Shown here one piece after another: positions 1-63,651 of a stretch of 64,000 bases of DNA. Every line of letters starts with the position of its first letter. Position 1 is the first letter of the stretch. The notes under the pieces were generated by a model. That model had not been told where the DNA came from and did not search any database. It saw nothing but the letters and a program-made list of their open reading frames with translations. Source of the DNA: Diphasiastrum complanatum (Eukaryota > Streptophyta > Lycopodiopsida > Lycopodiales > Lycopodiaceae); NCBI GenBank assembly GCA_029204225.1, contig CM055104.1, positions 44,654,841 to 44,718,840 of the forward strand, given 5' to 3'. The translations under genes were made by a program, and so were the position numbers.

Positions 1-338
1 AAGTGTATCAGCCATAGCAAATACGACTAGGTCTAAAGAGATCAATCATGAAAATCATCAGCCAGCACACTTAGAAGCGAGAACTTCTATCAATGTTTCA
101 GAAATAGGGCTACATGTGCTGAGAGTGAAAAGTTTTTTAGTTGCCCCAAACGCGAAGCAGTTAAGAGACGCAAAATGGGATCAAACCCTCGGAATTCAGA
201 TACCTGTCTATGTATTCTAGGGTTTTATCTGTACCAGCTGCATCCTCGTCGCAGGCTTCTGCGGCTTCAGCCGCATCTCATACGAAGAAGATGACTCTGA
301 CGAGGACCAGAAACAAAAGTCAAAAAGCATGATCCATC
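1..338 (+). other. Unresolved 5' end of the LETM1-like gene
   Basis: This stretch should hold the mitochondrial presequence and the start of the LETM1-like gene, but I cannot build one continuous reading frame through it. One frame from about 236 gives an Ala/Ser-rich run, as expected of a presequence end. A different frame at about 280-330 gives an acidic, Lys/Gln-rich stretch (EEDDSDEDQKQKSK), which plant LETM1 proteins have just before the conserved region. Neither frame leads directly into the next conserved block at 339. No start codon or promoter is assigned. The true start may lie upstream of the window. Confidence 0.35.
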
Positions 339-26209: not shown

Positions 26210-27201
26210 TGTTAGATTTCTTATGCTCAGTCTTAAACAAATCGTTCAAAGTAATGAGCATCCTGAAAAACCGAAGGCCGACAACATATTTTTTGGCCTT
26301 CACATTTTTTTCCTTTGAGTTTTTCCTATGACTTAGAAATCATTTTTAGGCACCTTCGCCTTTTTCGTCTTTTTCGCTCCTTAGTGAAAAATGCGACACA
26401 CTGGCCAAGTGGCCAGAATAACTTAGAAATCATTTCTTAAAGGCACCTTTGGCTTTTTCGGCTTTTTCTCTCCATAGCGAAAAATGTGACACACTGGCCA
26501 AGTAGCCAGAATACCTTAGAAATCATTTTTTAAGGCACCTTCGGCTTTTTCGTCTTTTTTGCTCCATAGCAAAAAATGTGACACACTGGCCAAGTGGCCA
26601 GAATACCTTAGAAATCATTTTTAAGGCACCTTCGACTTTTTTTGGCTTTTTCGCTCCATAGCGAAAAATGCGACACATTGGCCAAGTGGCCAGAATACCT
26701 TAGAAATAATTTTAAGGCATCTTTGCCTTTTTCGTCTTTTTGCTGACCGACTTCGCCAATGGATGAGTAACCCTAAAACAGCTGGACAAACAAATATCCC
26801 AAAGGCGGTTGACGGTTACCAACTTTTGTACATATGCAAAGACTAGCATAAATAGCCTTAAAGGCTTGTAAGATATTTCCTCTCTTGTAAATCTCTATAT
26901 TAGCTAAAACAAGCTATGTAAGTGTTAATTTTTTTAATTTCTCTTTTTAATCAGAGTTATCTGTAGCCAACGTTATCACGCTCAGCAAGCTGAAGTTATT
27001 ACTTCAAACGATTGTACTCACTGTTGATATTTTTATCAGAGTGCAATTTTTTCATCTCACTACTGCGTCGTTTATTTGCGCAAACTGGATGAATTCTTCT
27101 ACGTGAATATTTATGCTGCTAATTGTTGCGTTTCTGTTCCTACACGCCTACGCTCTAAGCAACCGAGCCTTCACTGTGCTCACGACCACCGATTTTCGAC
27201 A
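26210..27201 (+). repeat. 5' LTR of the Copia element
   Basis: Starts TGTTAGATTTCTTATGCTCA and ends ...TTTTCGACA immediately before the primer-binding site, giving 992 bp with TG...CA ends. The first part carries four ~92-bp tandem units (about 26336-26730). The downstream part is AT-rich and would contain the transcription start and R-U5. No matching target-site duplication can be tested because the partner LTR is truncated. Confidence 0.85.
26336..26730 (+). repeat. Four ~92-bp hairpin-bearing tandem units in the 5' LTR
   Basis: The word CTGGCCAAGTGGCCAG or a variant recurs at about 26401, 26494, 26586 and 26678, a period of 92-93 bp. Each unit has two inverted repeats: CTGGCCA-AG-TGGCCAG and TTTTTCGCT-CCAT-AGCGAAAAA. 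The same array recurs in the 3' LTR. In plant LTRs such arrays often act as enhancer or silencer blocks; that role is inferred here. Confidence 0.85.
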
Positions 27202-27213
27202 TGGTATCAGAGC
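27202..27213 (+). promoter_or_regulatory. Primer-binding site (initiator tRNA-Met type)
   Basis: TGGTATCAGAGC directly follows the LTR end. It is the standard plant Copia primer-binding site, complementary to the 3' end of initiator methionine tRNA. It fixes the 5' LTR boundary. Confidence 0.92.
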
Positions 27214-27343
27214 AGGCATTCCAGTAATCTACATTTTTACTACGGATTATCAGTCTTGTTTCTATCAAGATATCTTTCTAGCAACGCATAGCCAACAGTA
27301 TTCAGACAATCGTTGTTTTTACCAACGATCTAGTCCAACCAGA

Positions 27344-28486
27344 ATGGATCCATCATCCAGTTTATCTCTTATTGACAAACTCGATGAAGATAACTACCAT
27401 CTCTGGAAATTCAAGATGAAGGTTATACTTTTAGCCAAAGAATTGTGGGACATCGTTGATGGCATAGAACTCAAACCAGATGGTGATGAAGTCATCATCA
27501 CCAATTGGAGACTGAGAGATGGCAAAGCATTTGCCATGATCACCCTCAACAGAAATGACACTCAGATCAGCCACATACGTGCTGTTCAGACAGCTAAGGA
27601 TGCATGGGACATCCTAGCAACTCTTTACAACATTAGAAACGTTACATCCAAGCTCCATCTGAGGAAAAAATTCTTCAACCTCAGAATGTCTGAAGCAGAT
27701 AGTGTTTTGAGTCACCTCAACACTTTCAAACATCTTATGGAGCAGATGACTGCAACTGGCTCAGTCATACAAGATTCCGATGCACTCATGACTCTATTAT
27801 CGAGTCTACCTGAAGCCTACAAAAATTGGGTAATGACAATTTCTACCCAGGAGCACCTCACTCTATCAAGAGTAATCTCGCTACTCCTACAAGAGGAGAT
27901 CAAAAGATCAGCATCCTCCTTAGGCTCAGGATCGGATCCTCAAGCTCTGTATTCAAAAAATCAGAAGTTTAGATCCAAGAGATCTACAAAGTCAGGCTCT
28001 ATTGACAAAAAAAGCAACATACAGTCTGGACCAAATTTTGGTTCAGGATCGAATTCAAGCTCTTCATCATTCCAACCTGCGAAGAAACTATTTTGCAGAT
28101 ACTGTAAGAGGACTGGTCACGAAAACAAAGAGTGTCGAACTTTGAAGTACAGCAACGAAAAGAAGAAGCAGTTCCAACAACAAGCACATAGTGCTACAAC
28201 CAATCACTCAAATCAGCAACAACAAGAAGAAGAAGATGAAGCAGCTTTCATGACCAAAGTCGAAGAACAACAGGATATCGATTTCTGGTATCTAGACTCC
28301 GGAGCAACTCAACACATGACTCACCATCGCGACTGGTTCAAGACTATAAGTTGTTCACCCACTCTCAAGTCGTGCAACTTGGAGACAACTCATCACATTC
28401 AATCGAAGGTGAAGGAACAGTCAGGGTTGAATTCAGAAGAGGTGAAGTCAAGTTGTTGTCCAACGTTCTCCACGTCCCAAATCTGA
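27344..28486 (+). pseudogene. Copia gag, zinc knuckle and protease start
   Basis: The likely start is the ATG at 27344 (MDPSSSLSLIDKL), though the frame is open from 27113. It encodes the Copia gag core (DEDNYHLWKFKMKVILLAKE), an acidic/Gln-rich tail, the CCHC knuckle CRYCKRTGHENKEC at about 28097-28140 and the protease active-site motif DSGATQHMT at about 28298. The correct frame is lost just after the protease motif, near 28350. The rest of the protease is carried in another frame to a stop at about 28591. Gag packages the element RNA; protease cuts the polyprotein. Confidence 0.88.
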
Positions 28487-29344
28487 CCAAGAATCTGCTC
28501 TCAGTTAGCAGAATCACTAATTCAGGTCGGAGGGTTGAATTCGATACAAAAGGCTGCACAATCCTTGACAAATTCCGGAAGGTTCTAGTCTAAGGAAGAA
28601 GAAGCGGCTATCTTTACAAACTTAGCCATTGCTATTCTTCTAACAGTCAAGCTCTTCACACAACCACTTTTGAATTAACTGATATGTTGTGGCATTTCAA
28701 ACTTGGCCATCTTAACTACAACAGTATTTAGCAAATGTCAGCTCAGAATATAGTACGACCTACCTTCAGTCAGCAAGCCAACTTCTCCATGCGAAAGTTG
28801 TATTATCAGCAAGCATGCTAGAAGTCCTTTCAGTTCAGACTCTGTTCATACATCCAAGGGCTTGCTTGACCTTGTACACAATGACATTTGTGGCCCGATG
28901 TAGACTGCTTCCACAGGGGGAGCTCTCTATTTCCTAACCTTCATCGACGACTTCTCTCGAAGGACTGCAACCTACTATATGAAGAGCAAATCTGAAGCAT
29001 GCAAGTTCTTCAAGCAGTTCAAGGTGTCTGCAGAAAACCAGACCCAGAGGAAGATCAAGGCTCTACACACAGATGGAGGGAGAGAGTACATCTCCACAGA
29101 ACTCAAGGAGTTCTGCAAGGCCAACGGGATACTTCAACATTACACAACCAACTACTCACCTCAGTCCAATGGTGTAGCTAAGCGGAAGAACCGAACACTC
29201 ATCAAAAGTGCCAAGAGCAGGATGGCCCATGCCTCTCTTCCAAAGAAGTTTTGGACAGAAGCGGTTACTACAGCTGCCTACTTACAGAATCAATCCATCA
29301 CCAAAGCTCTGAATGAAAAGACACCTTATGAGGTGTGGACATGA
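28351..29344 (+). pseudogene. Copia protease end and integrase, interrupted
   Basis: The frame from 28351 gives LSNVLHVPNLTKNLLSVSRI, the usual protease-to-integrase link, and stops near 28591. The zinc-binding start of integrase (28600-28900) contains several stops. The open part 28979-29344 has the core motifs HTDGGREYISTELKEFC and YSPQSNGVAKRKNRT, then FWTEAV. It stops at TGA near 29342 inside a conserved linker. Integrase would insert the cDNA into the host genome; this copy cannot make an intact one. Confidence 0.85.
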
Positions 29345-29371
29345 TCAAAACCATCAGTCAAACATATTCGA

Positions 29372-31355
29372 GTGTTTGGATGCATCGCTTTCGCTCAGAT
29401 CCCTGAGGATCTAAGAAGAAAGCTAGATGACAAGGGCAGGAAAACGATTTTCATTGGCTATTTCCAAAATCACAAGGGATACAAACTCTACAATTTGGAT
29501 ACCGAGAAGGCATTCACCAGTAGAGATGTCATTTTCGTAGAAGACTATTTCCTCGCCCACAAAGGAAAAGCTGTTGATAATTTTGACTCACGGATCGAGC
29601 AACCAGTCAATTTCGATCCAGAGAATCAATTGCAGAATCTCGACGCTAACTCAAAAGTTGAGCCAGAACCTCAACGAGTCAACCCACATCAGAGGACCAA
29701 AGTTCAACCCATGAGGTTGAACAGGTCCAGACAGCCTCCATCCAGATTTATGGATGATCCGGCCTGTAGGAACCAAACACAGTTGCTGAGGCAATGTCTA
29801 CTCCTGATGCTGACCAGTGAAGAGCAGCGATGGACACCAAATTCGATTCTCTTATGGAGAATCAAACATGGAAACTCATTGAGCTGTCAAAGGACCGAAA
29901 CCCAATTCCATGCAAATGGATATTCAAGGCGAAGTACGACGCTGAAGGCAGGCTAAATCGTTACAAGGCCAGGCTAGTCGCCAAAGGCTTTTTTCAGATT
30001 CCAGATCTGGATTATTCAGAAACCTTCTGCCCAGTCGTCAAACATGCTTCGATCCGCCTCCTTCTCTCCTTTGCAACTGCAGCAGATCTGGAAGTTCATC
30101 AGATGGATGTTCAGACCGCTTTCCTCAATGGAACCATCAAAGAGGAATATACATGATGCGGCCAGAGGGATACGAACTCAATGGCAAGCAATAGCACCTT
30201 GTATGCAAAATTCACAGGGCGCTCTACGGGCTAAAACAGTCACCCAGAGCCTGGTTCCAGAAGATCAATGCATTTCTGATAGAGAATGGTTTTACTCCAA
30301 ACTCAGCAGACTTGAATGTTTACTTCAAATCTGTATCAAAATACTTCATCATCATCACTCTCTACGTAGATGATACACTCTTATTCAGTAATAATCTGAA
30401 TCTGATGAAAGATACAAAGTGCATGCTGGCCCAGAAATACAAGATGACTGACATGTGTCCAACCCACTATTGTCTCGGAATCCAAATCCAATGAGATCGA
30501 CCCAGCAGACTGATCTTCATCAGTCAGCAACGATATCTCAACAACGTGCTTGAAAAATATGGAATGGCCAACTGCAAACCCAGTCTCTTTCCACTCGACT
30601 CTGGACTTAAGCTATCAAAGGAACAGTTTCCTCAAACTGAGGCAAAAAAGAAGGAGATGAAGCGCTACCTGTTTCAATCCATCATCGACTCACTGATGTA
30701 CGCAATGATCTGCACGAGACCAGACCTTGCATATTCGCCCAGTACACTCAGCCAGTTCCTATCAAATCCAGGCATAGCTCATTGGAAAGCGCTAACAAAG
30801 GTCATGAAGTACATTCAAGCAATGACAACTCTCAGCATCTGCTATGGAGGCAGCCAAAATGCCAATATCCTTGAAGCCTACACATATGCGGATTGGGCAG
30901 GAGATGTCGACACCAGAAAATCAACTTCTGGATTTGTATTTTTATACAACCAAGGCCCAATCTCATGGAACAGCCGGAAGAAGACCTCAGTTGCATTATC
31001 ATCAACAGAATTCGAATACATAGCTGCCACAAATGCAACCAAAGAGGCGATCTGGCTTAGGCAACTGCTTGCAGACCTCAATCTTGCACAACCACTTCCT
31101 ACAATAATCTATTGTCACAATCAAAGCACAATAGCGCTATCTCTCAATTCGAGATTTCACTCTCGAAGCAAACATATAGAAATCAGGTATCACTACCTTA
31201 GAGAGAAAGTGCACAGTAAGGAAGTAGTTTTGATTTTCTGTAGAACAAATTACATGGCAGCAGATTACTTCAAAAAGGCTCTATCAAAAGAGCAACATCT
31301 CAGATTTAACAATATGTTAAATTTGAAGATTAAAGTTTTTCAGAATCCACATTAA
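29372..31355 (+). pseudogene. Copia reverse transcriptase and RNase H, with frame breaks
   Basis: After the linker (VFGCIAFAQIP, KTIFIGYFQNHKGYKLYN, FTSRDVIFVED) the RT begins near 29830 (NQTWKLIELSKDRNPIPCKW) and has YKARLVAKGF and HQMDVQTAFLNGTI. The frame is lost near 30150. The catalytic YVDDTLLF box is in the frame at about 30363. RNase H runs 30546-31355 with ADWAGDVDTRKSTSGFVF, ISWNSRKKTSVALSSTE and a normal stop just before the polypurine tract. The RNase H part is the best preserved. Confidence 0.9.
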
Positions 31356-31362: not shown

Positions 31363-31847
31363 TGTTAGATTTTTTATGCTCAGCCTTAAACAAATCGTTC
31401 AAAGTAATGAGCATCCTGAAAAACCGAAGGCCGACAACATATTTTTTGGCCTTCACATTTTAGAAATCATTTTTAGGCACCTTCGCCTTTTTCGCTCCTT
31501 AGCGAAAAATGCGACACACTGGCCAAGTGGCCAGAATAACTTAGAAATCATTTTTTAAAGGCACCTTAGGCTTTTTCGGCTTTTTCGCTCCATAGCAAAA
31601 AATGCGATACATTGGCCAAGTAGCCAGAATACTTTAGAAATCATTTTTTAAGGAACCTTCGACTTTTTTGACTTTTTCGCTCCATAGCGAAAAATGCAAC
31701 ACACTGGCCAAGTGGCCAAAATACCTTAGAAATCATTTTTAAGACACCTTTGACTTTTTCGGCTTTTTTGTTCCATAGCGAAAAATGTGACACACTAGCC
31801 AAGTGGCCAAAATACCTTAGAAATCATTTTAAGGCACCTTCGCCTTT
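31363..31847 (+). repeat. Truncated 3' LTR of the Copia element
   Basis: Nearly identical to the first ~480 bp of the 5' LTR, including four hairpin-bearing ~92-bp units (motif at about 31519, 31612, 31704 and 31795). Similarity stops after TTCGCCTTT near 31847. The remaining ~500 bp, including the LTR end, are absent and an unrelated GC-rich sequence follows. Confidence 0.85.
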
Positions 31848-32830: not shown

Positions 32831-33983
32831 CCTTCATATAAAGGATGTCAAAGCACTCTTATCTTCACAATAACACCTTTCTCCAAGGATACCAAACAAT
32901 TTATAGCCAAAGAAGGCTCTTAACTTGGCAATGTTGTGAGGAAATAATGAATGTAGCACATTTTGATCCTCTTTTCTTTCAAGCACTAGAATGCTCGAAG
33001 AAATCACTCACAAACACTTTGTCCCCTAAAAAAGCGTTATTCTAAATGTGCACAATAACTTTGACCAAAAATGGTCAAATTTGGCCTTCATAACAAAGTT
33101 ATTTATCCAAGGTTGACTAAGACACCTAACAAATGGCCTTTTCGAAGTTGTGACTTCATAGATGCCTACGTATAGACAAAGTCCTTGACTCATCTAAACA
33201 TAACTATCTTGAAGTCCAGCTAATCCTTGTTTACTTAAGACCTTTTTGGCTTGTTATCTATATTTAAGACACTTTGAGAGAACCGAATTCATTTTTACGC
33301 CTAATAATCTCCTCTTAGGCCCAAAAAAGCTTACAATAGATATATTATGCACTTTTGAGTGCTTAGGTATTTTTTACACATGACATGCATACCATGTAAT
33401 AATAAAAAGAAAGAGGATTTGTACTTTTACTTCCACTAAAATATAAAGACATTTTATTGTCATGAACACAATTTCGTTTTTTATGCAACCACAACACACA
33501 AAATTGTGCCTTAGCACATACAATAGGATTACTTATACACAAACAAAAGCGTGCACTATAGGTGCAGAAGCTTTCCTAAATGCACATAAGTACATTTGGC
33601 TTTATGGAAAGAGAAGGGCCTCAAAAAGCATACCCATTCTTTGTAAAATATTTGCATGTTTCTTGAAATTGTGTGAAACTTCAAAGCTGTCTGAGTGGTA
33701 TGAAAATTGCCTAGAGTTCAAGCCAACGATTTTTGGCAAATGTATGTGCCCAACTGCATATCAACTGGTGTTGGGACTTTCACATGGAATGTTCTGCAAG
33801 TAGTTACCCGTACAAATATCAATGTTTTCCACAACTATCAAAAAATCAATCAAATTTGTAGCCATGAAAGCATTCCTCTCATGTTCCAACAATTATGCAA
33901 GAAAGTTTGCACACATATTAAGTACCCCTACCACGTGTATGTTTCAAATGTGGTAGGTTGTGGAGAGGAAGAGGATGAGCGCA

Positions 33984-34050
<67 letters not shown>

Positions 34051-34964
34051 ATTGGTATTAAGTTTTCAAAAAGTAGATTGTGAAAGTTAGTTTAGAAGAT
34101 CATTGTGAAAAACACTTGTAACAATTCCATTATGTTCAAGTTGGTAATTTTTCTTCCTATAATAGTCAGTTAACCTTAGACTATTTTCAGTCTAATTGAA
34201 ATAGAATCATAGGGCTAATAATTTGCAGTATTGAATGACTACCTCAATACACCCTATGATGTAACTATGCCTGCAGGGCCTTTACTTACATCCTCAAATT
34301 CCATGCTCTTTTAGTGATTTCAACTTCGTTGTTTCCATACTGAACAAATTCCTTCTGATTGATTTTCCTTCAAATAACTCCTGAATAAAATCTCTTCACC
34401 CAAATTTGTAGGATTGGACGATTATCAAGGTATTGATATTAGATGGCTCAACTAGCTTTTTACTGGAAACACACTGATGATATAGAGTCAGAGGTATATT
34501 CACATCATTGCTTCAAAATTTGCATGCAATTAGGGTTAGCACGTTTGAAGTGCCCAAATTGATTAATAAAAGCACCCTACTGCTGATACGTCACTTGTGC
34601 TATTACAGTTTCTCTCCTTAAGTGGTATGGTAATTTTTTTAATGGTATACGTTCCTACCCATGTGCACAAGTGAAATCTAACTCCATATGAACACATGTT
34701 GAGTGAGGAAAGATGATGTTAGTGGCTAGGCCATATTTCTGGAAATTTCGTGATCAAATTGTGTTGGTCACGTTAGCATATGCCTGCTGTAGCATAAGCT
34801 TACATAAAAGTCAGCTGCCAACAAATGAGAGATTCTGGTTCAAAAATCGTGTGTCCGGGGAAATTCAGAAGATTACTTGGAATTTTTCTCAATAGGGTAT
34901 AAAGTAAACCTTTCCTCTGTATATTCAGTTGAAAGAGAGATTATGTACATTGAATATATTGATT
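32831..34964. other. Unannotated stretch with a GA microsatellite
   Basis: No gene or transposon coding motif is recognised. A (GA)n run spans about 33989-34048 (60 bp) and produces artefactual Arg-Glu repeats in open frames. The last part lies downstream of the minus-strand ligase gene and may include its 3' UTR. Confidence 0.5.
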
Positions 34965-37900
34965 TCATTGACCTTGCAGACGACACATTGAGCATCCTAG
35001 ACAATGTTTTTGGCCATTAGGAGCATGGACAATTCTTAGTGGACACCAATTAGGGCCTTTACACTGAAAAGGCAAAAAATGTTCTTGCAGGTCCGGTCTA
35101 ATCAAGTGGCAATTTTCACAAAAATTAACTCCTCCATAGCAAATGTACATGGCTGGCGAGCAACAAAATTGGCATTTGAATTCTAGGTATTCTTTCCCAT
35201 GACCATTTTTGCAAAAATGCTTCACTCCAGCACTGCAGCTCCCGCACATTAATTGATTAGCATCCATTCTTTGGCTGATCAACAAAAGGGAAATATGTCA
35301 ACTCAATAGAAGCATCACTAAGCCAGAAAAGCCTGATAATTTTTTTTTGCATCATGCAAGAATTGTAACAAGATTTACTTTCAGGACTTACTCTGCTTGG
35401 ATCCCACAGTTACGAGCTCCCCCAAAGTATGGTTCACCACACTTGAAGCACAAAAAATATTGATATATATGCACGGCATATTCTGCAGGTCTTCCTTCAA
35501 AGGTGCCCCCAGGCATAAGCTCCTTGCTATTCTTTAATGAACTGTCTGTCTTCAGCCGTTTCAATGCTTTATCTTTTACCTAAAACGGCAATTGCAAGCT
35601 TTAATTTTGACCAGAAAATAAGAGTGGAAAATAGAATATTAGCATTATTAGGAACGGGATTGCCTGCCCATTAAGAGCCCTTACAGCGTTTTCCCCTGCA
35701 GTATTCATCATCCTGGAATGTATACAATAGGTAAAGGAATCATACCAATTTCTTTATGGATAAGGGATGCTGCATGCACACATCCAGATAAGTGTGCTTC
35801 ATGAGTTCAGAACACTGTGGACAGTTAAGGTAGCTGAAGCTGATTTCAAGACCAGGCCATCCTCCTGCAACTTTCATTTTGGCACAATGGTAATGAACAA
35901 TGTGTCCACATTGCAGTTGTATTGATGGAGCACAATGAAGGGATTCCACAGCACAGATGGTGCATAGATCACTGGCTGCAGGTAGAAATCTTGCTCGACA
36001 ATGAACATCTCTTTTCCGACAAGCATCCTAATTTAGCACATGTATACAACAGTAAGGTTGTGTGATAAATAGCCTCTCTAGAAGCTGTGTGGTAGCTTAA
36101 ATAGAATTTGTCATATGCATTCAAAATGGCAAGGATTAATTGAAAAAGTTGCATAAGGATTACACAAGAAAAGAGTTTAGATGAACGGAGATTCTTGAGT
36201 GCAAGCAGCATTTGGCATAACTTTTGAATTCTGTTCAGCTTTAGGAAAAACATAAAATCTTGATAGTTATTCACTAAGACAAATCTCATCTAACTTGGTA
36301 AAGGTGAGGAGGCGAAAGTTCTCTCTTGTTAGTCAAATACTATTTGCTAGAGCACTCAATGAATTCTGTCCACAAAGTGTTGCGCCACTTTTATAACTGT
36401 ATGCGTTGTCTAGTGGGAAGCAAATGAGCCACTTTGGGGATTCTGTCCACTAAAATGAAGATAATTTGCAATCCATTATTTGATTGACTTATCACAAACT
36501 CCATGGTAATGTGTGACCATTTTCTTTCTGTCATTGCCGGAGTTTGTAAAATTCCATAAGGACGATAATTGAAATTTTTGTTTATCATTTTTGCATGATT
36601 GACACTTGGTTACAAACTCTAAAATGTCATGTCACATTCCCCTCCATAAAAACCTATGATTAATCTTGCCAAAAGTTCTGTTGAGTCCTTGGTGACATCA
36701 AATTGAAGAACTATGGTGATTCTGTAGAATTTGCGTCTTGAATTCAGATTGTAAAATTAAGAGTATTCGATTCATTGTAGCGATTGATTTATCATTTGAT
36801 TCATCCTGTACTGGATCTCACAGCCATAGCTTTGTAAAAGTTCTCTCGACCACCTTTTGCTCTGGAGTTACACTGGTTTGACTCTAAAAGTTTTCCAAAG
36901 AATGGTGATCAGGTAAGAACCAAGAATCTATTGACATAAATATGATGGCGCCATTTCTTAATAGCATGAATTATGGCCAACATGTCCTTCGCCCTGCATA
37001 AGCTATCACACATTGCTATTGCCTTAAAGATATAGTTCCCAATCCTTTCCAAAAGCATCAGTTCGATTATGAATGGCATGAAAAAATCAGGAAAGCATAA
37101 CAAAGTGTAGAAGTCATGACTTGTTTCAGCTTCTCAAATGCCACTTGCTTGTTCGTTCCAAGCAAATTCCCGTATCTTTAAGAGGTTGGCACAATGCGTG
37201 ATAAATTTTCTGTAAAATGAAGTCAATGCAAGGAATGCCTTCAGTTGTGTTGCACTTGACGCCAGTTCACAATCACCTTTACCTTTGCAGGATGCACCGA
37301 AATGTTTTGGTCACTGATAATTTGAATCAAATACTCCACTTGAGGTAAGATAAAAAAATGTGTCTGGTGAATTTAGCAAATGATTGGTGCTCTGTGAAGA
37401 TTTCCAGAGTGGCCTTAACATGCTCATAATGCTCTTCCTTATAATCGATGCACATTATAAGTGTTCCATCTTTGTTCCTTACTACAAGCATAGGAGCTGC
37501 ATATGACGATTCAATGTGTCAAAAATTCTTTTGCAAAAGTTCCTCAATTTTCTCCGTAACCTCCTCCCTTTCCACCATAGATAGTCTATATGGAGGCTGA
37601 TTGATTGGCTTCGTGCCCCAATCAAAGTAATTTCATGTACCACATAGTTGTTTCGTGGAAGATTAAGTGGCAATTCTAAAAACACAGGATCAAATTGTGG
37701 TAAGACAGTATCCTTAATCTTACTTTGAATTAAGTCATTAAATCTACTTTATTGTGGAGGTTTTTGACTCCCTCCTAATGCCAATATGTCGTGCTTGATA
37801 GGGTGCACCTGCAGAAGAAAAACAATTCCTTACTTCTTGAATTCCGCCCTAAACTCCCTAATTGTCATAAGATCAATTGTGTCTAAATTTAATTCCACAC

Positions 37901-40900
37901 AATATGGTAACCTTTGTTTCATTGTGGAACTTCAAAGAATGCTACTAAAGATGGACATGAACTTCCACTGATTTTCCCATCCAATCACATCTTAAATAAC
38001 ATCTGCTGGTCCTAACCATAGAATTTGAGAACCGTGGAAGGTTCACCATGGTTCTCAGAACCGTACGGTTCACCAAAAAACTAAGGCTGAACCGTGGTGA
38101 ACCGTCCAATTAATTGATTAATTATTTTTTAATTTCCCACCCCCAAACATAGCCCAAAAATATGCAATAAAAGGCCAAAAAAATCTGTGAAATCTGTGTA
38201 ATGCCAAAAATCTGTGAAATCTGTGAAATCTGGGAAATCATTTGAATCTGTGAAATCTGTGTAATGCCAAAAATCTGTGAAATCTGAGGACCATTTGTGA
38301 AATCTGTGAAATGAGGGCCAAAAATGCCTTGTGAGGGGTTTGGGGGGGAAAATGGAAATTAATTAATTAGAGGAACCGGTTCATGAACCGTGGTACGGTT
38401 CACCCCACGGTTCTGAGAACCGTGGGTTCTATGGTCCTAACTCAAATCTACTAAAATAGACTCATTACTACCAGATTTAATACTAGCATCCTTACAATAC
38501 AGTTTACTCAAAAGTTTGTCCCCACTAGCTAGCTACCTGTACTTACAACTTTTCCAAACTCCCTCAATCCTTATCTCACTCCTTAAATAATTTTCTTATT
38601 CATAATATTTATGAAATTGTCAGTATTACCACTATCTAGAAGAAAACTTTCTCTTTAGATTTGAAGGGCCATGGACTATCTGCAAGAGTCTCTTTATTTG
38701 TTTCTCAGAATGAGAATTAGGCCAATAGTTGATCCTCCCACTTTCCTTGCTTAGCATTCTCTTCATGGTCAGGTGATCATTTATCTCCACATAAAAAAAA
38801 AATGTTCCTCTTTCTTCTTTACTCTATGAAAGCTTGTGAAAGTTCAAGCAGTTTTCAAGTACCTCAAGATATTTAGATGGATTAAATAATTTTGTAGGTC
38901 TGACATCCGGGAACCTTGTAAAAGAGCTTAAAGTCCCAACATTGGCAAATAGTTGTGATCCTCCTGCTGCAAGATTTCTTTGGTTGAAAAATTCTTCGAA
39001 ACTTTCTTAAGAATTGTCAAAGATTTTACCCATGTACTTGGCTTTGAAAAGTTTTGCTGGTTGTAATGCTTCCTTAAATCCAAGCCTTGAGATATTGACA
39101 TCCACCGCGATTTTTACATCTAAATGATGGATGCATTTGGTGATTCATCTTTTATCATTCACTCCCTTCGTAAAGAGTAAAATTTTCTAGAAATGCTGAA
39201 TATATTCTCTGATGTAATGACTCGATGCTAGGTCCACGGTATGTGGCCCCTGTCGACGCATATCCCTCCAACATGAGTCTTTGCTAGATGGAAAAGGAAG
39301 TCACAAAGGTAGAACAATCTTCCGATGGACACATCCACCTTAGTCTTATTGCCACCCGAAATGATTGCAAATAGTATTGTCTACCCCTAACAGCAGCCCT
39401 GCCACCTCTAGAAGAAGAGGGGCCAACTACATCTATATGTGGTGTGGTGTAGATGTGCCAATCTCTACCCCTGTCTCACCTTGAGTCGAGGTGAATGCAC
39501 GCCTACCTGAAGAAACTAATCCTATTGCAACAAACAGAATAAAAAAACATTCAATCGCTGCAAATCACAATGCACATTCATCATTCCATATCTACCATAT
39601 CCCTCCAACATGAGTCTTTGCTAGATGGAAAAGGAAGTCACAAAGGTAGAACAATCTTCCGATGGACACATCCACCTTAGTCTTATTGCCACCCGAAATG
39701 ATTGCAAATAGTATTGTCTACCCCTAACAGCAGCCCTGCCACCTCTAGAAGAAGAGGGGCCAACTACATCTATATGTGGTGTGGTGTAGATGTGCCAATC
39801 TCTACCCCTGTCTCACCTTGAGTCGAGGTGAATGCACGCCTACCTGAAGAAACTAATCCTATTGCAACAAACAGAATAAAAAAACATTCAATCACTGCAA
39901 ATCACAATGCACATTCATCATTCCATATCTACCATATCCCTCCAACATGAGTCTTTGCTAGATGGAAAAGGAAGTCACAAAGGTAGAACAATCTTCCGAT
40001 GGACACATCCACCTTAGCCTTATTGCCACCCGAAATGATTGCAAATAGTATTGTCTACCCCTAACAGCAGCCCTGCCACCTCTAGAAGAAGAGGGGCCAA
40101 CTACATCTATATGTGGTGTGGTGTAGATGTGCCAATCTCTACCCCTGTCTCACCTTGAGTCGAGGTGAATGCACGCCTACCTGAAGAAACTAATCCTATT
40201 GCAACAAACAGAATAAAAAAACATTCAATCACTGCAAATCACAATGCACATTCATCATTCAAATTTCAAAAGCAAAAAAATCAACCTTCAAACTTCAAGT
40301 CACAAGTGTATAATTCTCACCTGCAACTGGAGGAATAATCTCCTCTCTCCAAACAACTCCTGGTCTCGCAATCGTGCCCAAGAGCCCTGGTGGTGCCTAA
40401 AGGCATGCTCCAATCCCGTAGCCACACAAACAGAGGTGTACTCGAATACACACCGGACCACTTTTGTGGCTCACGTGACGATAATTGCATGTCCAGATTT
40501 TTGTGCTCGAGCTACTGTATGCTGAAGAAGTTGTGACATGATCCCATACGGGATCTCTAGATCTCACCATGACTCCCAACTCCTCACTCCTAAGTTCTAA
40601 CTCCCAACTTCTAGCATTCCTCTCACCTCTATTACCTAAAACTAAACTCCAACACTCCTAACTAGTCATTTAGTAGCTACTAACCACTCTACTAGCTAAC
40701 ATTAAAATCACACATCTCTAAGCTCCTCCTCTCCTATTCGCTCTCCTAACTCTTGACTCTTACCTCTCTCCTTCATTTACCCAATACTCAATTTCTAAAC
40801 ATCTAACTCCCAACTCTCTAATAATCAAGCTTCAACCTCTCTCTCCTCTCTGCTCTCTTTTCTCCTCTCCTTTCTTTTCTCCTATGTTTCTCCTTTCTTT

Positions 40901-43129
40901 CCGTTGAAAAGAGGTGCACAAAAAAGTTTTGAAAGAATCGCGAGGTGAGTCCGATTTGGGGGGCCAGTGGTAGATTTTTTTTCCCAATCCTAATCATTTC
41001 CGATTCGAATCGGGACCGGTCAATTCATTGATGAATCATGATTCATTCGCCAACAAATCGTGATTCATGGAAACACTACTCAAGACCCTCAATAAAGGTC
41101 CTAGGACCCCTTTTGGCCTCCAAAGGGGACTGACCTAAACTGCCTCAGTAGTCTACTATTGCACCATCAGGTTTGCTTAGAGCCAAAACAAAAGGGGGTG
41201 AGGAAGAAGTCGGCAAAACATTTCAAACGTTGGGAGGATTTTTCAAACATTTGAAATGCGTTTTAAATGTTTCACATTTGGACGTTTTAAATGTTTCATT
41301 GTCATTATGCATGCAACTTACAGGCTCACTACAACCTACAATAGAAGATGCAGTTTAAAGACCTCATATTTTTCAATAAACAACAAAGAACTTGAAATTT
41401 CTCAAATAAATTTAGGAAGGAATTTGAAATATTCTTCAATGTGGCAATCAAACGACTTATCCAGAAGCACATTTTCATAAATTCTCCATGTTTCTAGGTT
41501 GGCTCTGTTGAGATTACAAACTCGCCGACGGACTCTTATTTATCCGGTTTAGATACTCATTCTTCACTAAAAAATCATAAGAGCTTCTTGTATCATTGTT
41601 TACAAAAAAAGATTGTATTGTTGCAATCCTACTGCATATTCCACATATAAAAGCCTTTTTCCAAAGTTTCCAAAGAAGATGTCAAATGAAAATGTATCAC
41701 TTTTCTTGTGCTCCAACTCTAATTCAGATGAACTCATGACGAGAGAAACAATAGCAAGTCTAACTACTTTAGCACACGAACACTTCACAGAAGATCATAC
41801 AGACATTTGCCAAGACCATGAAACTGATAACTTTCCATATTTACAAAAACAATCCAGTTACAAAAAGTTTAATCTTCAGGACAGGTTTTTGTTCCATACC
41901 TGTAGGCAAGGTAAGCAATTGAGCTCACCTCGTACGCCCCCACATGGATGACCACAAACCAAGGTACGTGTGCAAGCCTCTTTCAATTTCTTCCTGCACT
42001 CTTCTTCCCCACAAATAGAAGCAGCAAGCCTTTGCACTGCAACTAGCTCACTTTTTTCCACACACCAACTAATGTCAACAGCCTCTTTTTCCAACCAAAT
42101 CTGCAATTCTTTGACAGATTTTGCAGAATCATCTGAAGCTTCTCGTTTTCTTGCATATACAGGATCCTGACAATACTTGCATCTAGCACTGTTTTTCTCT
42201 TCCAGAAGTTGCTCACAAGTTCTCCCTAAATGGTACGGACACTCCAAGCAAGATCCACAAAAGTTGACATGACAAATAGTACATCTGAAGCGGTTAACAG
42301 CTTTGTGGAGCAGTGCAGCTCTTGATAAAGGCCTTCTATTGCAGTCTAGCTCTGTAAAAGGAACTGTCCTATCTAACTCAGGGACTCCAGAAAGGGCTAA
42401 ACCTGGAGGCAGCTCACTGGCAACTTTTTCAATCACAACATTGCAACCAGGGCATTTCACATAATCGGTAGTGGATTCAAAAAGAGCTAGGTTAGCTGCT
42501 TCCTGCCACTGCTGAAATGCTTTTGGTGCAAGGTGCTGAGCGTCTGCAAGGGAAAAAGTTCCTGTACACGATGGAGAAGGACAAGGAAAGGCAACTCTAG
42601 CTCTGATGGAGTTGGCATCTTCGATCCTCTCTATGTAAGAAGTCCCATTTGATGTGGGCATAGTATTTTCTCCTTTCTTCAAACTCAAAGAATCATCCGA
42701 GCCTGAAGAACAGACAGCCTTTTTTGTTCTATTCACAGTGATTGAAGCAGAACCCAAAGTATCATTTGGAGTGCATGTTGATGCCGTTGTTAGCAAATAA
42801 TGTGTATACGAGCTGAGACAAGGCTTACAAAGCAGGCAAGAGCAACTTAACTCCGTAAAAATCAGGTCCAAAGAAACACTCCCACTACACAGCCTACAAA
42901 AAAACTGAGGATCCTCCTTAGCTTCAGGCACACCAGACGAGGCTATGCTTGAAGTTGACACAAAAGCGTAAGGGATTGGATCAGCCTGTATAAAAGCAGT
43001 CGCCCAATCTCCATCCTCATCCTCAAATTCTCCTTTCACAAAATTTAGTAAAAATTCTGCTTGTAAGGTAGACACCTCACTTGGTTTGGCAATCTGCTGC
43101 AACACAACTTCTGTTTGCAACAGGTCCAT
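34965..43129 (-). CDS. RBR-like / RING-Cys-Relay hybrid E3 ubiquitin ligase
   Basis: Four exons on the minus strand (43129-41900, 36027-35746, 35579-35392, 35274-34965) join in phase with GT-AG junctions to 669 residues. Residues 78-104 are a RING1-like Cys cluster. Residues 183-305 hold an IBR (C226, C229, C283, C286, C291, C294, H300, C305). After C317/C320 no normal RING2 is visible. Instead come CGHPCGGV (392-399) and CLPCL (405-409), a RING (C432, C435, C450, H452, H457, C458, C479, C482), and a tandem-cysteine region: CFKCGEPYFGG (548-558), C562, FKCQFCCS (599-606), C612, FCENCH (618-623), CPLRIVHAPNG (644-654), LGCSMCR (659-665). The second half matches the C-terminus of MYCBP2/PHR ligases. 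Those pass ubiquitin between two cysteines and onto Thr/Ser. C562 and C612 align with the two relay cysteines. Human PHR proteins exceed 4,600 residues and lack the RBR half as far as I know. Start: first ATG of the long exon, Met at 43129. Confidence 0.85.
36391..37690 (-). pseudogene. Ty3/Gypsy pol relic inside the ligase intron
   Basis: In minus-strand order: an RT-start-like block (about 37685-37480), an RNase H block ending AIKKWRHHIYVNRFLVLT (about 36909-36970), an integrase zinc-binding part (FLWRGM...CQSCK, about 36600-36660) and an integrase start (ERKWSHITMEFVISQS and ILVDRIPKVAHLLPTR, 36588-36391). RT-RNase H-integrase order identifies Ty3/Gypsy. Stops and frame changes are frequent. 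It is in the same transcriptional sense as the host gene and lies in its 5.9-kb first intron. Confidence 0.75.
38017..38433. mobile_element. hAT-type MITE with 8-bp target-site duplication
   Basis: The 417-bp element begins CATAGAA and ends TTCTATG. It is flanked on both sides by GTCCTAAC (38009-38016 and 38434-38441), a perfect 8-bp target duplication, as hAT transposases make. Both ends are packed with the word GAACCGT in both orientations, including the 14-base palindrome GAACCGTACGGTTC near 38057. The interior has imperfect tandem copies of AATCTGTGAAATCTGTG. No transposase is encoded. It sits in the ligase intron. Confidence 0.85.
39261..40260. repeat. Three 337-bp tandem repeats
   Basis: Copies start at 39261, 39598 and 39935, exactly 337 bp apart. 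Each begins TATCCCTCCAACATGAGTC and ends with CACATTCATCATTC. Only isolated differences are visible (CAATCGCTG against CAATCACTG; TTAGTCTTATT against TTAGCCTTATT). Each contains the self-complementary-looking AGAAGAAGAGG and GGTGTGGTGTAG words but no evident coding frame. The near-identity points to recent unequal crossing-over. It lies in the first intron of the ligase gene. Confidence 0.95.
40930..41080. repeat. Palindromic-word cluster (GATTCATG/CGATTCGAATCG)
   Basis: Contains two perfect palindromes, CGATTCGAATCG and TGAATCATGATTCA, plus further GATTCATGG copies. The right end GGAAACACTA and the left CAGTGGTAGA loosely resemble hAT termini, but no 8-bp target duplication was found. It is probably a degraded MITE of the same general type as that at 38017, with a different internal word. 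Confidence 0.45.
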
Positions 43130-44080
43130 CTTATATCTTGATCCAGTAAGAAAGAAGCTATTCCAGTCTCAGGCGAATTCTGGGAGAGCTTGTTGTAGCT
43201 CCAATAAAAAAAATCTACAAATTGAATGTTTTGTTAGCAGATTTCTCATGAACCACTGCTTCGGCGGATTTCATATGAACAATAGCTATGCAGAACATAT
43301 GAAAGCCCTAATTTCTGACGTAAGCAGACGCAATACTCCAGGAGTTGATGGTGCTTAGCTGAGAAGCCTAGGAATAAGAAAGCAGGAATTTAAGTCCATA
43401 ACGTAATCCTCTTAGATCAATCATGTGTTCACAGATGTTCAGGGTATTGATTAAAGACCTAAAAGGGGTTAAGAATTGCAAACAGAATTCTTCAACAGAC
43501 ATGGGCTATAATAGGGGATGGCAAAACAGGAGCATCAAAATCATTAATTCCTTCTCACTTTGATGGTAGCAGGGCAGAAACCCATGTACCAGAATGGCGC
43601 AATCACGAAGTGCTTTCCTTCTCACACATCAATCTTCAAAAACACAAGTGATTCAATCTTCAATACAAAGGCAACCAGAGTTGCGAAAGTGATTGTCAGC
43701 AACCTTTGAGCTTCTGATCTGTGCACAAATTCTGCCCAAACAAGCAGCCAGCCCCAACCCACCACGCGTATTTGCTCTCCTCCTTCCTTGCTTACTTGTA
43801 AAGGGTGAGGAAAGAGCAAAGAAGGAAGGCGGAAGGCGGAAGGCGGAAGGGCTTCTTGCGATTCATGCTTTTTTGGCTTTGCTTTGCTTTTAAGAAGATT
43901 TTATATTCAGCTGAACCGAAGGAAGACAAGAAAAAACGCTTCATAAATATGCATGTGTGTGTGTGTGTTTTTTTTAGCTTTATTGGTTGCACTTTTATGC
44001 TACATTGAGGGAGTAAGTGGGCTTGGCTTTAATAACTAGGCTTACATGGCAAAGTTGGGAATCCTCTTAGGGCCGTTTCG
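43130..44080. other. Upstream region of the ligase gene
   Basis: This is the 5' side of the minus-strand ligase gene and should hold its 5' UTR and promoter. I see no unambiguous TATA box. Simple repeats are present: (GGCGGAA)3 at about 43829-43850, and (TG)n followed by a T run at about 43953-43976. No coding signal. Confidence 0.4.
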
Positions 44081-44232
44081 GACTAGGTGCAACTCCCTTT
44101 GCCCTCTGTTTTCTCTTGTCGCTCATTGTTTTTTAATCTCGCCAAATGAATTCACGGACTAGGTGCAACTCCCTTTGCCCTCTGTTTTCTCTTGTCGCTC
44201 CTTGTTTTTTAATCTCGCCAAATGAATTCACG
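44081..44232. repeat. 76-bp tandem duplication
   Basis: Two adjacent 76-bp copies, 44081-44156 and 44157-44232, begin GACTAGGTGCAACTCCC and end AATGAATTCACG. One base differs (GCTCATTG against GCTCCTTG). The duplication lies about 1 kb upstream of the ligase start codon. Confidence 0.93.
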
Positions 44233-45089
44233 GGCAATGGACCCTCGTTCTTTTCTCCCTAGACCAACGAGAGAACTCCATTTTAAATCTAGGATGTACC
44301 GGGGAATGTAGTGTGAAATGGGTCTTAGAGTCTATTTCCGTAGCTAAACCCAATCCATGGTTGCATCTGTTGGATTTCTATTCGAAATCAATCGTTAAGG
44401 TGTTTGCTGCAAAGCTTTACATCTGTAAAGTACTCAGGGGTCGCAACGTCAAAATACCTTAGAGTCCAATTTTAGGGTTGAAAATGCATGCAAGGGTCAA
44501 AATAGCCTGGAGTTGAAACTCAACTCGACTCAGGTCAAAATTTAATATTGACTTGACTTGCCAACCCAACGATTCGATTCGACTCGACACTCAATTTTTA
44601 GAGTCAAAATAAAAAAGGATCGTCAAGGTCGAAATAAATGGTCACCTTCAACCAATAATGACCTTCTTGTAGATCTACACAAATTCTTTCAACGGACGTT
44701 CTACTACAATTAACCATAGATGAGAGGAAGTAGTGACTACTACTAAGTAGTCTTATAAATCAATTCAGGATGTAATTAACATTTTTATATAAATAAAAAG
44801 TCCATTGCCTCCATTAGGAGGGGCGCATGGCACTCTTCCAAGAGTGCAAATGATACCCATTGTACATTCATGTTTTCTATAACAGTTTCATAGTAGCCAA
44901 TGTTTCTACCATTAGTGAATCTCAGTAGCTAGAGATTCTATCTTTGGTGAATTAACCCAATGATTGTTGTGATGTTATTTTTTGTACATCCAGTGATTTA
45001 TGTATTGAGTCTAGTTGCGCTCCATCACAACTATTTTGCATATTGCTATCATAAGTTTATTGTTTAATCTTGGACCGCCTTAACGGGCC
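44233..45089. other. Unannotated, with a GACTCGA word cluster
   Basis: No gene is seen. At about 44510-44620 the words GAGTTGA, ACTCGACTC, GATTCGATTCGACTCGAC recur in both orientations beside AGAGTCAAAATA, a third example of a short-word inverted cluster typical of small DNA-transposon ends. No target duplication was identified. Confidence 0.35.
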
Positions 45090-60165: not shown

Positions 60166-61018
60166 ATCAAGACGAGAAATTCATTTCCCCAATGACTAAC
60201 ATTATACTATCTCCAATGCGATAGAGGCCTTTCGAGCGCAGGGAAATTTAAGGTGGGCCATGACTCCCGTCTGGCCCCCACTTCTAACGTCAATCATCCA
60301 AAAACGTCGGGACGGGATGGGAAGCACTAGCTCTTGCGTAGGCTTTAAATGCCTGTTGCGCTCAAATGCACATCCAACGGAAGTGGTCAGGTGAGAGTAT
60401 GAGACGCTAGGTCTCTCACTTAACCACATCCGTTGGATGTGCATCTCAGTTTCTCGCTTAACCACAACCGTTGGATGTGCATCCGAGCACGACAAGCATT
60501 TATTGCCTCTGCATTTTTCAGACAAAATGGGCAGAAGGTACCACTTTGCAAGGTACCCTAAATAGACCACAATATAAAGCATGTGATACCTAGAATTAGG
60601 GCATAGGACGAGGAGGCAAGAGAGGAGCTCTTTTGGGCGATGGCGTTCTCCTCCTGCTCAAACCCTAGACGGCCGACCTCCGCTTGAGCTCTGCTTCCTC
60701 TGCTTTTTCCTCTCCACAAATCACATCCAGGCTGTGTTCTTCTGCTATGGCAGGATCCTGCATTCATCGCGGAGGTTTGCAGATGCTTGCGTCTTCGACT
60801 TATTTAAGGATTTGTTGAAGGAAGAAGTATGAATCATGGAATGCAGCTTTTGTGGTATGCAGAGATAGGCTGAAGAGCATGGATTTTAGATCAAGCGCTT
60901 CTGAAGTGGAGGTTGTTGTTGGCAGAGTAGCACTTTCAGAGGTGAGCAGACCAGTGTCCTTGTTTAGGTTGCCATGTCAGCTGATGTCCGAAGCTAGAAT
61001 AATTGATTGTGAGGTGTA
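60166..61018. other. Upstream region of the pseudouridine synthase gene
   Basis: Likely promoter and 5' UTR. It contains the 14-base word TGCACATCCAACGG at 60367-60380 and its exact reverse complement twice, at 60430-60443 and 60468-60481. A possible non-coding first exon ends at 60941 before GTGAGC. An upstream ATG at 60879 could open a 21-codon frame but cannot be spliced in frame to 61019 by any AG I can see. Confidence 0.45.
60367..60481. repeat. Inverted and direct 14-base repeats upstream of the PUS1-like gene
   Basis: CCGTTGGATGTGCA at 60430-60443 and 60468-60481 (38-bp spacing) and its reverse complement at 60367-60380. They could form a hairpin or be paired protein-binding sites, or mark a small transposon in the promoter. 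Confidence 0.8.
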
Positions 61019-63177
61019 ATGAGGAAAGGAAACGAGATGGAAAGTTCAAGTGAAAAACAGAAAATACAGGACGAAATCAAAACCGAAATGTTCTCATCTC
61101 GGGTGAACGATTCAGTTCAAGAAAAAGAAATAAGTTATTGTAATGGAAATGGTTTGCAATCGGCTGTTGGTGATGAAACCCTTGCATGCCAGATGTTTCA
61201 TTGTGAGGCTGGATTGAACGGTAATGAAACTTCTGTTTCGAGAACAGGCAAGAAAAGCGAGTGTGTTCCTTTGGGAATGGAGCTCAGGGTCCGAAGTGAA
61301 GAAGAGAGACTTAATACTGTGAACAGAAAGATAGACGCTGAAAGCGAGCTGGAGGACAATGGCATCAATAAAAGCCAATGGCAGAATGTCCATGAGGCAA
61401 GCGATTTCGTCTTCAAGAACGCGGCTGAACTATTGAAGGTGTCTAATCAAGCACATGCTGCAAGCATTGGCAATGAACTTATGGAAAAGAGTATTCATAA
61501 TGTACCGGGGAAGAAAGCAGATGTAGCTGATGTAGCTCGTAAGCTTTCTGAATATGTGGAGGCTGAAGCTATCTCTAGGGATAACCTATATGATAAAAAA
61601 ACAACTGTTATGAACGGTGGTGAGATTATGGTTAATCAGTGCCAAGCGAATAGTGATTATAGAGGAAAGGAATTAATTGAGGAAATAGAAGCTCATAAGG
61701 AACATGGGGCTGTGATTCCGATAGAGGCAGCTATGTCTCAACATCAAAGCTTTGCAGATGGTGGAACTGAAGAAAGAAACCCTGAACAGCAAGGTGTTTT
61801 CATCCACAGAAAAAGGAGTATTGCAGAAGCTGATTTAGGAGGAGTAGGAACAGAAAGGCTGAAGAAGAGCCTTAAGCCAGAAGGAGTTGATGAAGTGTCT
61901 GCTAACTCGGCTGGGAATGAAGGTCCCAATGACTGTCATACTCAGAGGCCGGAAACTGCTCCTGAAGACATCAACTTAGAAACTTCAGTTTGCAAGGAGG
62001 GCGAGAGTACTACAGTTCCTCGTGTTCCTCGCTACAAGAAAAGAAAGATTGCACTTTTTGTGGCATATTGTGGAGTAGGGTATCAAGGAATGCAGAGGAA
62101 TCCAGGCGCAGTCACTATAGAGGGTGACTTGGAAGAAGCCCTTTTCAAAGCGGGTGCCATTGCAGAATCCAACTTTGGGGACCCTTGGAAAGTTGAGTGG
62201 ATGCGGGCAGCAAGGACTGACAAAGGGGTGAGTGCAGTGGGTCAGGTTGTGTCTGGAAGATTTTTCATTGATCCCGCAGGTTTTGTGGAGAGAGTGAACT
62301 CTCATCTTCCAAGGCAAATTCACGTGCTTGGTTACAAGCGGGTAACCAATACGTTTAATGCAAAAAATCTCTGTGATAGACGCAGGTATGAGTATGTCCT
62401 GCCTGTGTTTACCTTTGATCCATCAGCCCATCTCGACCGAGAGAGTGTGAAGCAACTTGGAGGCGGGATCAAAGTCAGTATCTGCTCTGAAACCAGGCAA
62501 GGATCAGAAGGGACAGTCATCAATGAAGACTTTAAGAACGCTGCTCAAGATATCACAGAACTTTCACAAAATATTCCAGATGACGTCCTCCAAAGAGAGT
62601 CTGTAAGAGAACATTCAGAGGAAGAGCCTCAATTGGAGAATGGGATGGAAGCCGTGGACAGAACCTTGCCAAAAAGGTATCCTAAGAATCACACTCAAGC
62701 TACAGATGTTAGTAACGTTATCCTACGTGGTACAGTCCCTTTTGATCCTTCCATGGGAGAAAATGAAGTCCAACAAGAAGTTCACAGTTCTTCCCAGCAT
62801 AATGATGGTGAGAAATTTGGGTCTTTAGGTGTATCTTCCGAACCAGTGATCTTATCGAAAGAAGCTTCTGTAAAAGCTAATTTTCAGTTTGGGGAGAAAC
62901 ACCTTTCGCACTTCAATAGCATTCTCAGCCATTATGTTGGAACACACAACTTCCATAACTTCACATCCCGCATGAAGGCAGAGGATCCAAGTGCCAAAAG
63001 ATACATCGTGTCATTTGAAGCATGCAGTGTTTTCACCATTGGATGTATGGAGTTTGTAAAATGCAAAGTCGTTGGGCAAAGTTTTATGCTTCATCAGATT
63101 CGTAAAATGATTGGTCTTGCTGTTGCTATAGCACGTGGATGTGCTCCTCTATCAATCATTGAAACTGCCTTAAGAAG
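61019..63177 (+). CDS. tRNA pseudouridine synthase, PUS1/TruA family (3' partial)
   Basis: Converts uridine to pseudouridine in tRNA (and, for PUS1, some other RNAs), in nucleus or organelles. The start ATG at 61019 follows an in-frame TGA at 61010-61012. Residues 1 to about 335 form an unusual acidic, low-complexity extension. The catalytic domain starts near 337 (YKKRKIALFVAYCGVGYQGMQ). The catalytic motif ARTDKGVSA has the nucleophilic Asp at residue 401. NAKNLCDRRRYEYVLPVF follows. A variable insert of about 140 residues (roughly 485-625) separates it from the second half: HNFTSRMKAEDPSAKRYI (about 643), MEFVKCKVVGQSFMLHQIRKMI. The exon ends at 63177 before GTATTA. Reading through adds only YYLDI and a stop. 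The usual C-terminal block of the family is missing, so further exon(s) must lie beyond the window. Known plant homologues are about 450-550 residues. Confidence 0.9.
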
Positions 63178-63651
63178 GTATTATTTGGACATTTGATTAT
63201 TGTTTGAACCTTGCAAAGAAACATACTACATAGACTATCTCATTGTTGGCATATTCTTTAGTCAGCTAATTTACTTGTTTTGAAGCTCCTGTTTTCTACA
63301 AGCATGATGAAAGTGAATGCTGAAAAGGGAGGAAGTTTTTAAAATGCTTGTAGTTCATTCTGCCTTTATAGAACTTTTCAGTGCAGTTTGCTGATCATTT
63401 GAAATTGATGCACCTAGTGTTGGGCGTCGATGAAATTTATGATTGTAGTTAGACTCAATAGTTTAAGGTGCACGTATTGCTTCTTACATTTCAATATAGT
63501 TCTTCGATTTAACATTTACCTATATGGTTGTTTCCATTGGTCGAATTCCCTTTTGTTGTTTTATATATTTGTACCTGATGTACTTTCGAAGGAGTAAATC
63601 CAACAGTAGGGTATAGTCAAACAAATATAATGTGGCATGTTTAATTGAGCA
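63178..63651. other. Start of the next PUS1-like intron
   Basis: AT-rich and non-coding. If the GT at 63178-63179 is the donor, this is intron sequence leading to the Gypsy fragment at the window edge. The missing C-terminal exon is not found within the window. Confidence 0.55.

Follow-up and report, generated by a model that had tools for sequence, protein, structure and literature searches.

A predicted Diphasiastrum complanatum protein joining an RBR-type RING1-IBR region to a homologue of the MYCBP2 RING-Cys-Relay module

A compendium of human E3s places MYCBP2 among the atypical ligases and, in the portion of the text available, describes the RING1-IBR-RING2 triad as invariably linked (PMC13061254). 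C4520 is reported to be a catalytic residue of MYCBP2 (PMC12664034), and its second site is described as a Cys-His-Glu triad (PMC9527308). In a table of a 2026 review MYCBP2 is labelled 'RBR-like', with no argument given in the accessible part of that review (PMC13008643). For green plants, four RBR subfamilies are reported (Marin 2010; PMC2904391), one plant review counts the RING-Cys-Relay (RCR) among the E3 classes and, in the sections available, gives no example from plants (PMC11668491), and by term counts neither MYCBP2 nor 'relay' occurs in the main text of a survey of plant RING proteins (PMC6118397).

Here, we describe a gene of D. complanatum that is predicted to combine the two kinds of ligase in one chain. 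An earlier note on this DNA, made from the sequence alone, had held the architecture to be undescribed in plants. This is likely rather than proven, as no plant RCR E3 was described among the open-access literature matches listed, judged by titles and the starts of abstracts.

Gene model and setting of the locus

The window, i.e. the whole stretch analysed, comprises 64,000 nt of D. complanatum contig CM055104.1 (positions 44,654,841-44,718,840), and corresponds to C13:44654841-44718840 in the genome that was searched (1.74 Gb, 5176 contigs). The gene and all of its features lie on the minus strand. As the earlier note had claimed, four exons (43129-41900, 36027-35746, 35579-35392 and 35274-34965, in window coordinates) join in phase to give 2010 bases encoding 669 residues and a stop, and the exon ends, phases and product length were all recovered. 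The three introns (5872, 166 and 117 bases) are all GT-AG.

Exon 1 (41900..43129; Met1-Gln410) is preceded by an upstream in-frame stop, includes the RING1, the IBR, a linker and a CGHPCGG/CLPC motif, and ends at the donor CAG/GTATGG. Intron 1 (36028..41899; 5872 bases) holds a three-fold repeat of a 337-base unit (39259-40260, 99 % matches). Exon 2 (35746..36027) encodes residues 411-504, and exon 3 (35392..35579), which was defined by its GT-AG boundaries, phase and best-scoring frame, encodes residues 505-567 with codon 567 split. Exon 4 (34965..35274; residues 567-669 and a TGA stop) contains the bulk of the tandem-cysteine domain. When the six frames of each exon were ranked by codon bias, with a model derived from the remaining exons and from one gene nearby, the true frame came first for exons 1, 3 and 4 and only third for exon 2, which counts against the gene model. 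Exon 2 has no Met before its RING and its frame opens at the acceptor itself, and hence it needs an upstream coding exon and is no independent gene start. The model of a single gene made up of exons 1-4, including the predicted 5.87-kb join, is judged likely.

Among 11 candidates scored, the only genome matches to the protein at E values up to 0.01 were this gene and a near-identical copy found 895,830 bases further along the same contig. The copy is 99.92 % identical to positions 33926-44460 of the window (4 mismatches in 10,535 columns) and 99.87 % identical to positions 1-8740. Past approximately position 44460, the similarity of the copy sequence compared is limited to pieces in inverted orientation (~97.5 %). 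The second copy is either a recent (segmental) duplication or an assembly artefact. Relatives elsewhere were looked for with a few short patterns per scan, and none was confirmed among the pattern stretches from viral contigs (0/6 for the whole protein and 0/141 for the plant-human RCR alignment) or from prokaryotic genome contigs (0/83 and 0/66); tblastn gave no relative in phages. These scans say nothing on plants or protists.

In the remainder of the 64-kb window, no tRNA genes or Rfam families were detected. The remains of a Copia-type LTR retrotransposon occupy positions 27107-31355 (plus strand), with a gag match (E=5e-36) in 27107-28486, pol-like letters in further frames and, in the last frame (30495-31355), no Pfam match at E values up to 0.001. 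This element is flanked by similar tandem units of ~91-92 bases at 26332-26741 and 31482-31847, perhaps part of its LTRs. An open frame of 727 codons at 61013-63196 (plus strand) matches the tRNA pseudouridine synthase domain family PF01416 at E=1.7e-12. Elsewhere in the genome, 15 of at least 29 IBR matches are on one contig (C22), where they form two clusters (~7.6-7.8 Mb and 30.7-31.7 Mb) that suggest a local expansion of RBR genes. The NAM (NAC) domain, a plant-specific transcription factor domain, has 98 matches in the genome, which gives good support for its being from a plant.

The two halves of the predicted protein

The C-terminal ~240 residues proved, by alignment, to be homologous to the RCR module of MYCBP2. 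Residues 427-665 match residues 8-258 of the crystallized module (PDB 5o6c; phmmer E=5.5e-48), a second MYCBP2 chain (6t7f) was found in the PDB search at E=8.8e-48, and both chains align over the RCR only. A two-sequence BLASTP comparison with the human RCR gave 2e-55 with 89 of 250 columns identical (36 %), while the identity in a MAFFT alignment was 39 %. In a global alignment, 95 of the 231 aligned residue pairs are identical, and the score of 474.5 compares with a mean of 71.9 (sd 23.7) and a highest value of 141.5 among 500 shuffles in which Cys and His were kept fixed. The tandem-cysteine part alone, for which the earlier note had suggested a comparison with MYCBP2, also gave a strong match, scoring 264 against a maximum of 129 for shuffles of the same kind. 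As these scores lie far above those of the Cys/His-fixed shuffles, the likeness to MYCBP2 is more than a cysteine pattern. A chance cysteine pattern was rejected, as both this half and the RBR profile described below outscore shuffles.

The RING-H2 that opens this half, the second RING of the protein (residues 432-482; 35812..35964), has eight ligands that align with those of the MYCBP2 RING, and matched zf-RING_2 at E=0.0019, under the cut-off. It is followed, as in MYCBP2, by the tandem-cysteine domain. Human residue numbers are counted here from C4520, which we take as the anchor for MYCBP2 numbering. The global alignment pairs C562 (codon 35406..35408), the predicted first relay cysteine, with C4520; C612 (35139..35141), the predicted second, with C4572; H623 (35106..35108), the predicted catalytic histidine, with H4583; and F618 with F4578. 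These are the positions that the earlier note had assigned by eye, including the aromatic residue at 618. The plant protein has the same letter at 27 of the 33 human Cys/His positions, both relay cysteines and the catalytic His among them. The six that differ in the alignment are C4417, H4477, H4577, H4599, C4600 and H4617, and a plant Cys lies one column away from C4600. Elsewhere, Y613 is aligned with F4573, and D4584 falls in a gapped stretch with no clear plant partner.

Q574 (35253..35255) aligns with E4534, which is presumably the triad Glu of MYCBP2. We take Q574 to replace this glutamate, a departure from the human enzyme that is absent from the earlier note. Hence, the C-terminal half is named here as a homologue of the RCR module and not as a proven RCR enzyme.

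The evidence for the N-terminal half is weaker but real, and points to an RBR RING1-IBR that has diverged and carries long loops. The RING1-like cluster and full C6HC IBR read by the earlier note are present by eye, with ligands C78, C81, C96, C98, C101, C104, C183 and C188 for the RING1 (residues 78-188; 42566..42898) and C226, C229, C283, C286, C291, C294, H300 and C305 for the IBR (residues 226-305; 42215..42454). The long loops comprise 78 residues between C104 and C183 and 53 residues between C229 and C283. In phmmer searches of the PDB, residues 73-114 matched the RING1 of RNF144A (6l99) at E=0.0017 when the query was residues 69-334 and at 0.01 when it was the whole protein. With the shorter query, a second RNF144A chain followed at 0.03, together with EMC8 (0.037 and 0.038) and TRAF3 (0.065); the EMC8 and TRAF3 matches are taken as chance though their E values are close behind. 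The RING1 segment (residues 69-117) gave no Pfam RING match and only a weak B-box match (E=0.05, cut-off missed). The Pfam IBR family (PF01485, profile 2-65 of 65) matched residues 207-305 at E=0.00024 and 21.6 bits, under the 24.3-bit cut-off, when residues 114-334 alone were used as query. No IBR was found at E values up to 0.1 with the entire exon 1, and no Pfam family at E values up to 1 with the whole 669-residue protein, perhaps because of the long loop. In the N-terminal 73 residues and the linker, no known domain was taken as real in Pfam or PDB searches; PDB matches with E values of 0.13 to 0.16 and weak Pfam matches such as those to GpA_ATPase, ProRS-C_1 and VWD were set aside as fortuitous.

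A profile built from seven RBR fragments of the D. complanatum genome matched two stretches in order, 176-238 (for the RING1) and 277-315 (for the IBR) (domain E=5.2e-6 and 1e-6, in a one-sequence search with filters off). The protein scored 12.6 bits, while the best of 500 shuffles with Cys and His fixed reached -8.3 bits and the best of the 499 scored from 500 full shuffles 4.1 bits, so that none of the 999 shuffles that could be scored, out of 1,000, reached the score of the protein. Against the same profile the human and plant RCRs scored -13.6 and -15.1 bits, respectively, and none of the seven RBR fragments scored above 0.0 bits with the human RCR. Since these cross-scores are at or below zero, the front and back halves belong to distinct families.

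What was not found with the front half is a RING2 (Rcat) with its catalytic cysteine. A RING2 profile was made from six RBRs of the same genome, and its positive control, an RBR that is itself a member of the profile, scored 66.4 bits. The profile revealed no convincing RING2 in intron 1 or in the flanks (5 kb downstream and 6.9 kb upstream), the best of 776 six-frame pieces of at least 15 residues scoring 5.2 bits (E=0.57). The entire exon 1 gave E=0.015, composed of 7.1 bits at the first knuckle of the IBR (223-236) and 4.7 bits at residues 307-321. The latter stretch, QLLEEKNSARCKYCQ (42167..42211), is where a RING2 should begin and is a possible remnant of its first knuckle, the 4.7 bits alone being not significant. 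As no RING2 was found, the protein is not classed as a member of the RBR family, and an ordinary RBR was rejected on the profile scan.

The end of exon 1 encodes a cysteine-rich motif, CGEEEC...CGHPCGG...CLPC (residues 373-408; 41906..42013, read from the sequence), for which no Pfam or PDB match was taken as real. We believe that a near-identical CGHPCGG...CLPC stretch lies just upstream of the MYCBP2 RING and, hence, the motif is likely to be within the MYCBP2-like half. The earlier note had placed CGHPCGG/CLPCL where the RING2 would be; the motif is probably no new replacement for it.

Mechanism and rival readings

The reading that we prefer, with a probability of roughly 70 %, is a compact transthiolating ubiquitin ligase in which an RBR RING1-IBR front is followed by an RCR-type relay. 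The second RING (432-482) would bind E2~ubiquitin and, on the precedent of MYCBP2, ubiquitin would be passed from the E2 to C562, then to C612 and finally to a Ser/Thr hydroxyl with H623 acting as base. Q574 could serve in place of the glutamate, as an amide does in Cys-His-Asn proteases. The RING1-IBR may have been retained for a non-catalytic task, for which we conjecture binding of a second E2~ubiquitin, of an allosteric ubiquitin, or of a substrate or partner; because its own catalytic partner, the RING2, was not found, a binding or regulatory module is the plainest guess. Catalysis, the preference for hydroxyls and the roles of Q574 and of the RING1-IBR are all inferred. The hybrid E3 of the earlier note, with a relay module in place of the RING2, is thus kept as to both halves, which are recognizable by sequence, and corrected in two respects, the triad Gln that it missed and the probable MYCBP2-like origin of CGHPCGG/CLPC. 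If the relay works, the RCR class extends beyond animals. A plant RBR/RCR protein would break the RING1-IBR-RING2 rule, would predict Ser/Thr ubiquitin esters in a plant, and would allow the mechanism to be studied in a chain of 669 residues rather than in one of >4600.

If the relay chemistry had been lost with the change from Glu to Gln, the protein would be an ordinary RING E3 or a non-functional remnant, with C562 and C612 structural only. The replacement at the aligned triad position, Y613 in place of F4573 and the gap at D4584 all fit such a loss, and with two near-identical gene copies constraint could be relaxed. However, the open frame is unbroken across four exons, and both relay cysteines and the His are retained at an identity of 95/231 although 6/33 human Cys/His positions have changed, and we consider this explanation improbable. 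Still less probable is that two genes have been joined, an RBR gene cut short (exon 1) and, on the other side of the 5.87-kb repeat-bearing stretch, an RCR gene of its own (exons 2-4). Intron 1 is long and includes a tandem repeat, and reading through the exon 1 donor is possible, reaching a stop after seven further residues. Against this, the exon 1 donor and exon 2 acceptor agree in phase 0, the end of exon 1 adjoins the cysteine motif and exon 1 lacks a RING2, and no further RBR piece was seen in intron 1 in the RING2 scan. Two separate genes were rejected, since the frame of exon 2 opens right at its acceptor and offers no start codon ahead of the RING.

A further alternative differs from the preferred explanation in history and shares its mechanism. 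The architecture may be ancestral and no fusion made in plants, in which case animal PHR proteins would once have had, or would still have, a (degenerate) RING1-IBR before the RCR, with their 'B-box' zinc fingers as its remnant. The weak B-box match of the RING1 segment and the resemblance of the exon 1 motif to the one that we presume to be upstream of the MYCBP2 RING both point this way. In RPM-1, B-box zinc fingers are reported directly before the RING (PMC9073554, PMC2627918), and hence a related front in animals is conceivable. However, a B-box differs from an IBR, the match to both MYCBP2 chains in the PDB search is confined to the RCR, and a review of PHR proteins gives, in the part available, conserved domains without a RING1-IBR front (PMC4806438). 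An ancestral origin is considered less likely than not. It is equally doubtful, though conceivable, that the compact ligase represents a third kind of transthiolating E3 that pre-dates the plant-animal split, with an RBR front that feeds or gates an RCR relay and two E2-binding RINGs per chain. If so, the animal PHR ligases would derive from it, keeping its front in degenerate form, and the formation of ubiquitin esters through a cysteine relay would be an ancient feature of eukaryotes that is present in land plants.

Comparison with known systems

HOIL-1 and RNF213 are ester-forming or non-canonical transthiolating E3s. Compared by description only, the plant protein resembles them in the hydroxyl-directed chemistry expected (HOIL-1) and in a catalytic Cys outside HECT, and differs in that, in the part of the source available, they have other catalytic domains and no RCR module (PMC9527308).

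With RBR E3s (RNF144A and those of its own genome) the plant protein shares the last C-x4-C pair of the RING1, the C6HC IBR and possibly the first RING2 knuckle. In the alignment with the RNF144A RING1 both have Cys at the position where most RING1s have His. Unlike RBR E3s, it has long loops in the RING1 and IBR, no RING2 catalytic cysteine was found, and a second RING and relay domain are in the place of the RING2. Because of the missing RING2, classification schemes for plant RBRs based on the full RING1-IBR-RING2 signature, as presented in the part of Marin's study available, have probably missed this gene (PMC2904391).

The plant protein is not an orthologue of the PHR proteins (MYCBP2, Highwire, RPM-1) by domain content, since no RCC1-like, PHR or DOC domain is found in its 669 residues by Pfam at E values up to 1, and unlike MYCBP2 it is predicted to have a Gln at the triad Glu position and an RBR-type RING1-IBR in front. 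What it has in common with the RCR modules of this group (5o6c and 6t7f) is a RING-H2, a linker and a tandem-cysteine domain in the same order and, with MYCBP2, the predicted relay cysteines and catalytic His, the equivalent of F4578, and most of the Cys/His letters.
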